Of a DNA stretch of 35,241 nt, positions 1,836 through 33,851 are shown piece after piece (position 1 is the first letter of the stretch; each line of letters opens with the position of its first letter). The DNA is from Flavobacteriales bacterium (GTDB taxonomy: Bacteria > Bacteroidota > Bacteroidia > DT-38): the NCBI GenBank assembly GCA_013214205.1, contig JABSPQ010000007.1, positions 1-35,241 on the forward strand. The letters run 5' to 3'. The translations under genes were made by a program, and so were the position numbers. A model generated the notes under the pieces. The model was not told the DNA's origin. It searched no databases and saw only the letters and a list, made by a program, of their open reading frames with translations.

Positions 1836-3134
1836 TTAGTAAATTCCGTCAAGTGGCCAATTGCCATGTAATCTCATTGCCTGTTCAATAACATCTCTTA
1901 CGCAGCCTGCGCCACCATTTATGTCGGAAATGTAATCACACAACGCTTTAATGTCAACTGCTGCATCTGCTGGGCACGTTTTAACACCTGCAACTTGAAT
2001 GGCTCGAAAGTCGGGGAGGTCGTCGCCCATATAGAGTACCTCGTCTGTGGATAGGCGGTTCTCTTCCATAAAAGTTTTTAGCACCATTACCTTATCACGA
2101 ACAGCAATGTGAATATCTGTAATGCCTAATTTTTCCATTCTGCCAATAATTGCGTCGGATGAACCAGCTGTAATAATGCAAACGTGGTAGCCTTTTTTCT
2201 TGGCTAGCATCATTGCAAATCCATCTCTGGTAGACATTGTGCGAGCTTGTTCGCCCGTGCTGAGTAGCAGTACATCTCCGTTGGTTAATACGCCATCTAC
2301 ATCGAAAACGAATGCTTTAACCTTGTTTAATTGTTGTTTGAATATTTGTTGCGCCATGCTTATTTTTTTATGCTGTATACTTTCAGTTAGCAATTTATAA
2401 ATATTTTGATAATCCTCATTTCCTTTAAGCGCTTCCATGTGCTTTTTTAATACGTTTTGATCGTTGCGAATTGCAGGGCCAGTTTGTGCTTCCGCTGGTG
2501 TTAATTCGTCTAATTTATTAGTTGTTTCTTTTATTAACGGTACCACTAAATCGAATGGTAAGCCTTCTGCTTCCATTAGTTCGCTCGCTATGTGGTTCAT
2601 GTGATTGGTGAAATTGCAGACAAAAACGGCTGCCAAATGCAATGTTTTTCGCTTTTCGAAATTGATTTCTTGCACGTTATCTGATAAACTTTCGGCCAAA
2701 ACTTTGATTTGTTTTAAGGTTGAGGCAGAGTAGCTTTCAATGCAAATTGGAATTGAACAAAAATCTACTTGCTTAGTTTTACTAAAAGTTTGGAGCGGGT
2801 AGAGGATGCCGTAATTGGGCGAAGCGTTTTGTAATACTTCCATAGGAATGCTTCCGGCTGTGTGAACAAGAATTTTGTCTGCAATATTCAGCTTTATTGC
2901 CAGCGACTCGATCGCATCGTCTTTTACAGCAATAATGTAAATATCGGCGTTTGAATCAATTTGATCTATGTTGTTGGTGAAATCTGCATCGATTTGATTG
3001 GCTAAGGTTTTTGCAGCAGATTCATTTCTACTAAAAACCTGAACGATATTATGCTTTGCATTGTGAAGTGCAAGCCCCAGTTGAGTACCAACATTACCAC
3101 TACCAAGTAGAACTATTTTGAAAGATTTGATCAC
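1836..3134 (-). CDS. DUF2520 Rossmann protein fused to a KdsC-like HAD phosphatase
   Basis: The product has 432 residues and two complete modules. Residues 1 to about 258 are a Rossmann-like/DUF2520 protein: GSGNVGTQLGLAL near the N-terminus is a dinucleotide-binding loop, and the conserved AAVFVCNFTNHM helix follows later. Residues 260-432 are a KdsC-type HAD phosphatase: FDVDGVLTNG carries the nucleophile and acid Asp (D278, D280), TAGSS supplies the motif-II residue, and GDDLPD is motif III. KdsC dephosphorylates Kdo-8-phosphate in LPS synthesis. The two modules are normally separate neighbouring genes. Here the junction is cat-aaaaaaa-t-aagc-atg, read through a run of seven A (2363-2369 on the plus strand). 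With six A the first gene would stop at TAA, two bases before the ATG at 2357 that starts a normal 173-residue KdsC. The fusion may be real, produced by slippage, or a homopolymer error. Confidence 0.85.
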   Translation of the reverse strand: MIKSFKIVLLGSGNVGTQLGLALHNAKHNIVQVFSRNESAAKTLANQIDADFTNNIDQIDSNADIYIIAVKDDAIESLAIKLNIADKILVHTAGSIPMEVLQNASPNYGILYPLQTFSKTKQVDFCSIPICIESYSASTLKQIKVLAESLSDNVQEINFEKRKTLHLAAVFVCNFTNHMNHIASELMEAEGLPFDLVVPLIKETTNKLDELTPAEAQTGPAIRNDQNVLKKHMEALKGNEDYQNIYKLLTESIQHKKISMAQQIFKQQLNKVKAFVFDVDGVLTNGDVLLLSTGEQARTMSTRDGFAMMLAKKKGYHVCIITAGSSDAIIGRMEKLGITDIHIAVRDKVMVLKTFMEENRLSTDEVLYMGDDLPDFRAIQVAGVKTCPADAAVDIKALCDYISDINGGAGCVRDVIEQAMRLHGNWPLDGIY

Positions 3135-33194: not shown

Positions 33195-33851
33195 CTATTG
33201 ACGACTTTTCCATAAGATGGAAGTCCTCCCCGACACACGGATTTTTCCTGCGCTCAATTTTCTTATGTAGATGTAGCATACTAGTAGGATAAGGAAAAGA
33301 CAACCAATAAAGATGGGCAATGTACTGTCGGCTTTATTCTCTTTTGGCTTTAAATATTCTGCCGCACTCAATTTTCCATCGCATAGCTTTGCGATAATAT
33401 TTAGAGCTGATCCTATCTTCTTATGGATCACACCATTTTTTGATAATGGAACTAGCTTTAATGCAATTTTATCCGAAACCTTAATTGGAATTTTTTCAAT
33501 CCAATTACTGCCCACCACAATGCTTGGAATTGAGAAATCATACTCTTCGTAGATAGAAATTGTAATGCTGTTGTTAGTTTCTGATTCGTCGATTGTTGGA
33601 TCACTAACTTGGAAAAGGTGAATTCTCGTATGATCATTAAGTTCGAACTGATTTGCTGTGATTAATCGAATGAGAAAATCATTTTCCTTGTTGTTCTTAA
33701 TTAAGATTTCGTTTAGCTTTTCATAGTCAGCTTCTAGTAATATTTCTAAAGAGTCGATGATGTAATTGGACGAGTTACTCGCTGAATCAACTCCCCAAGA
33801 GCATATTAAAAGCCAACTGAAAAAGATTGAAACGAAAAAGGTTTTACTCAT
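33195..33851 (-). CDS. Membrane-anchored exported protein of unknown function
   Basis: The product has 218 residues. An N-terminal signal peptide (MSKTFFVSIFFSWLLICSW) and a single C-terminal membrane helix (LPIFIGCLFLILLVCYIYI at about 178-196), then a short basic tail (RKLSAGKIRVSGRTS), make a type I topology with a periplasmic domain of about 150 residues. That domain is rich in Ile, Asn and Asp, with no motif I recognise. It directly precedes the lipoprotein gene, and they may act together at the inner membrane. The region upstream (33852-33989) shows no clear promoter before the IS982 relic begins. Confidence 0.72.
   Translation of the reverse strand: MSKTFFVSIFFSWLLICSWGVDSASNSSNYIIDSLEILLEADYEKLNEILIKNNKENDFLIRLITANQFELNDHTRIHLFQVSDPTIDESETNNSITISIYEEYDFSIPSIVVGSNWIEKIPIKVSDKIALKLVPLSKNGVIHKKIGSALNIIAKLCDGKLSAAEYLKPKENKADSTLPIFIGCLFLILLVCYIYIRKLSAGKIRVSGRTSILWKSRQ

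Follow-up and report, generated by a model that had tools for sequence, protein, structure and literature searches.

A DUF2520–KdsC reading frame joined by one base of a seven-A run in a Flavobacteriales draft genome

The window (i.e., the whole stretch of 35,241 nucleotides analysed here) encodes on its minus strand one open frame of 432 codons, which begins with GTG, has zero internal stops and joins a DUF2520 part to a KdsC-type HAD phosphatase part (Table 1). The DUF2520 part passed the gathering cut-off of Pfam PF10728 (E = 1.3e-37, 128.8 bits; cut-off 25), and its nearest solved structure in a PDB comparison was 3d1l (BF3122; E = 3e-69). For the second part the nearest solved structure was 4hgn, a 2-keto-3-deoxy-D-manno-octulosonate 8-phosphate phosphohydrolase (E = 1.2e-42). 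Its score against NCBIfam TIGR01670 was just under the curated cut-off (97.2 versus 106.95 bits), and we refer to it as KdsC-like, a name assigned as a close-relative call. Both domains are intact in the fused frame. Literature searches, judged by titles and abstracts, turned up nothing on the function of DUF2520 or on a KdsC fusion.

Table 1 Features of the fused locus in the window.
Feature	Position	Strand	Description	Basis
Fused ORF, 432 aa	1836..3134	minus	DUF2520 part then KdsC-type HAD phosphatase part	
DUF2520 / Rossmann NADP-oxidoreductase-like part, residues 1-255	2370..3134	minus		Pfam PF10728, PDB
A7 run at joint	2363..2369	minus (T7 on plus)	base count sets split vs fused	
KdsC-type HAD phosphatase part, 173 aa from own ATG	1836..2357	minus		TIGR01670, PDB

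The genome that contains the window (G000) is a draft of 5.11 Mb in 464 contigs. A search of it for further copies or strain variants of the locus yielded this single copy only. In the same genome kdsA scored above its cut-off (contig C444) and a KdtA-type gene was detected (contig C237); kdsB was not found there (best score 46 bits) and is present in the sister genome G001. The absence of kdsB from the draft is probably a gap in the assembly, or a divergent replacement of the gene.

The joint reads CAT AAA AAA ATA AGC ATG GCG on the minus strand. Its run of seven A begins at codon position 1 of the fused frame, and the ATG of KdsC, at 2357, is residue 260 of that frame. The earlier note held that the two genes are read as one through a single base of this run, and that a six-A version would place TAA two bases ahead of the ATG of a 173-residue KdsC; the open reading frame and the joint sequence bear out the former, and re-reading the joint with six A bears out the latter, the first protein then ending in ...LLTESIQHKK at the stop codon. 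Given that the start codon lies at a two-base spacing, one extra base aligns the frames, and the coincidence of frames is therefore unremarkable, as a single-base length change at such a joint fuses the two frames roughly one time in three.

The fusion was not found in the closest relative. In the sister genome, the only other genome compared from the same genus, family or order, the proteins are encoded by separate open reading frames of 257 aa (DUF2520) and 173 aa (KdsC) with 2 bases between them, and the aligned joint (CAG AAG ACA AAA TAA TT ATG GCG CAG CAA) is one base shorter. The protein ends that meet at the joint align without a gap, i.e., QSIQKTK in the sister genome against ESIQHKK in the window for DUF2520 and MAQQIFKQQLNKVKAF in both for the KdsC start, so that the window differs from its relative by exactly one base at this place. 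Downstream of KdsC, a UbiA-family gene follows in both genomes. With a single close relative, at protein identities of 58% (DUF2520) and 80% (KdsC), the timing of the change is only loosely constrained. A relative with six A and TAA at the same place had been expected to expose the fusion as an error; TAA does stand two bases before the ATG in the sister genome, but four A precede it, not six. This split joint probably shows the ancestral state, and is not on its own proof of an error in the window.

To place the locus among more distant relatives, we compared 118 loci in which both genes were found on one strand. The genes were adjacent but split in 105, far apart in ten and fused in three, i.e., the window and two loci from related Bacteroidales-type MAGs (L008 and L009). 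Since resemblance to the fused query decided which loci were included, these counts should not be taken as a census of how often the genes adjoin. In a sample of 395 genomes of the class, every other match spanning both domains, among the matches listed, contained at least one in-frame stop. Four long "open frame" candidates (G036, G074, G208 and G250) were rejected as fusions, as a stop sits between the two genes in each. Among 103 distinct split joints, the downstream ATG lay no more than 10 nt from the stop in 45. The split state of the sister genome and of 105 of the 118 loci, together with the restriction of fusion to three loci, suggests that the split arrangement is ancestral and that the frame in the window was derived from it by a one-base length change.

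The two MAG loci (L008:2989-4320 and L009:3001-4332) each encode DUF2520 and KdsC in one open frame of 444 codons. They share 90.4% nucleotide identity over 1329 nt with zero gaps, and neither has a long A/T run at the joint, for which reasons the fusion in these MAGs is very probably real and unconnected with that in the window. It matches the window in domain content and domain order, with both domains in one open frame, and differs from it in the lack of a long A/T run at the joint and in being common to two distinct genomes. A DUF2520–KdsC fusion had been called unusual, and unusual it is, but not unique; it is tolerated elsewhere.

We consider it very likely that an ancestrally separate, tight gene pair was joined by a one-base lengthening of the A run, either in the genome or only in the assembly. 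In the ancestral pair kdsC would have followed the DUF2520 gene, its start codon two bases behind the stop of that gene, which is close enough that ribosomes may reinitiate or translation of the two genes may be coupled in the split form. A single base added to the A run at the 3' end of the DUF2520 gene would remove the stop and bring the frames into register. If the seventh A is real, ribosomes would read through to give the 432-aa fusion, and KdsC could still start at its own retained ATG behind a leader rich in A; should it be a consensus error, the products would simply be two proteins. Neither case would need a dedicated slippage device.

Whether the seventh A is a real base or an error is about an even question, a real insertion being slightly preferred. 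The error, a sequencing or assembly consensus error in a true genome with two genes, is a sub-case of the joined ancestral pair and falls a little short of an even chance. It would fit the split state of the sister genome and nearly all relatives, the fragmentation of the draft, and the fact that indel errors are likeliest in homopolymers; a few other genes in the genome are frameshifted as well, one of them (on contig C440) at an A6 run. Against it, few homopolymer-linked frameshifts turned up in the 377 kb of assembly that were sampled, and the 35-kb window, whose open reading frames hold about 12 further A/T runs 7 or 8 bases long, showed none elsewhere. It is the rarity of other homopolymer frameshifts in the sampled contigs that tips the balance slightly towards a real base.

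The observations on frameshifts come from a home-made, crude coding-frame scan. Of the 60 switches that it returned in the 377 kb, most reflected overlapping genes or weak signal on the antisense strand. In the window the scan gave no further convincing frameshift, and candidates near 33228, 29943 and 25788 were rejected as gene overlaps or gene ends. Clear broken genes, judged by eye among the switches, were on contigs C4, C20 and C440, a burden that looks normal, unlike that of an assembly full of homopolymer errors. The first is a hybrid histidine-kinase-like gene (L116, about 2.0-4.3 kb on C4) with several frameshifts, either a pseudogene or part of a poorly sequenced contig. The second, a DinB-like gene, changes frame twice (L130, about 14479 on C20), and the third is a gene with a terminal OmpA-like domain that is broken by a frame change beside the A6 run (L172, about 1216 on C440).

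It is improbable that the fusion is established and functional, with selection maintaining it because both proteins act together. The fused frames of the two MAGs, which lack a long A/T run, indicate that such a layout can persist, and the genes are neighbors in most of the surveyed loci; however, the sister genome is split, the fused frame has no linker past the former gene ends, and the ATG of KdsC is retained.

The possibility raised earlier that slippage at A7 lets the cell make split and fused products, by RNA polymerase slippage or by ribosomes slipping +1 (AAA-A-UAA) onto the stop, was not supported, and we give it very little credence. Loss of one base at the run would indeed set TAA directly behind Lys-Lys, and slippage is known at longer A runs, e.g., A9 in Thermus dnaX (PMC1088944). 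AT-rich bacteria are reported to avoid A runs in a length-dependent manner (PMC1088944), and the genome studied here agrees. Within 199 open reading frames with 150 or more codons (232 kb in all) from 377 kb of this genome, A7 runs were ordinary (71 observed versus 86 ± 8 expected from synonymous-codon shuffles), whereas A8 runs (18 versus 31 ± 5) and runs of A9 or longer (2 versus about 15) were depleted; no A9 run was observed against 10 expected, and two A10 runs against 4 ± 2. Accordingly, A7 is avoided only slightly, and avoidance becomes clear no earlier than A8–A9. An A/T run of at least 7 occurred near the stop in only 7 of the 103 distinct split joints. The frequency of A7 in intact frames and the lack of a conserved run at the joints of relatives argue against a programmed slippage switch; nothing seen at the joint points to special regulation, and these comparisons lend no support to a conserved slippage device. 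Very unlikely, too, is a reversible length switch, with strains or transcripts alternating between A6 (two proteins) and A7 (fusion), which, if true, would tune Kdo supply.

The joined ancestral pair has counterparts among known systems. The window shares with the tight, possibly translationally coupled DUF2520-kdsC pair of Bacteroidota the gene order, the domains and, as in the sister genome, the downstream UbiA-family gene, and differs in the extra base at the joint that gives one frame. In the GeneTack survey, single unclustered frame transitions were read as indel mutations or sequencing errors (PMC3711429). The window resembles such singletons in being a lone case, located at a stop/start junction next to seven A, except that the change fuses two intact genes rather than breaking one, and would be an ordinary case under that classification (PMC3711429). 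The locus is mainly a caution for annotation, as one homopolymer base in a draft can make conserved neighbors look like a fusion protein. Among the surveyed loci, what is very probably a genuine DUF2520–KdsC fusion came to light in the two related MAGs, and the frequent proximity of the two genes in the group hints mildly at a link between the uncharacterised DUF2520 protein and the metabolism of Kdo or the cell envelope.
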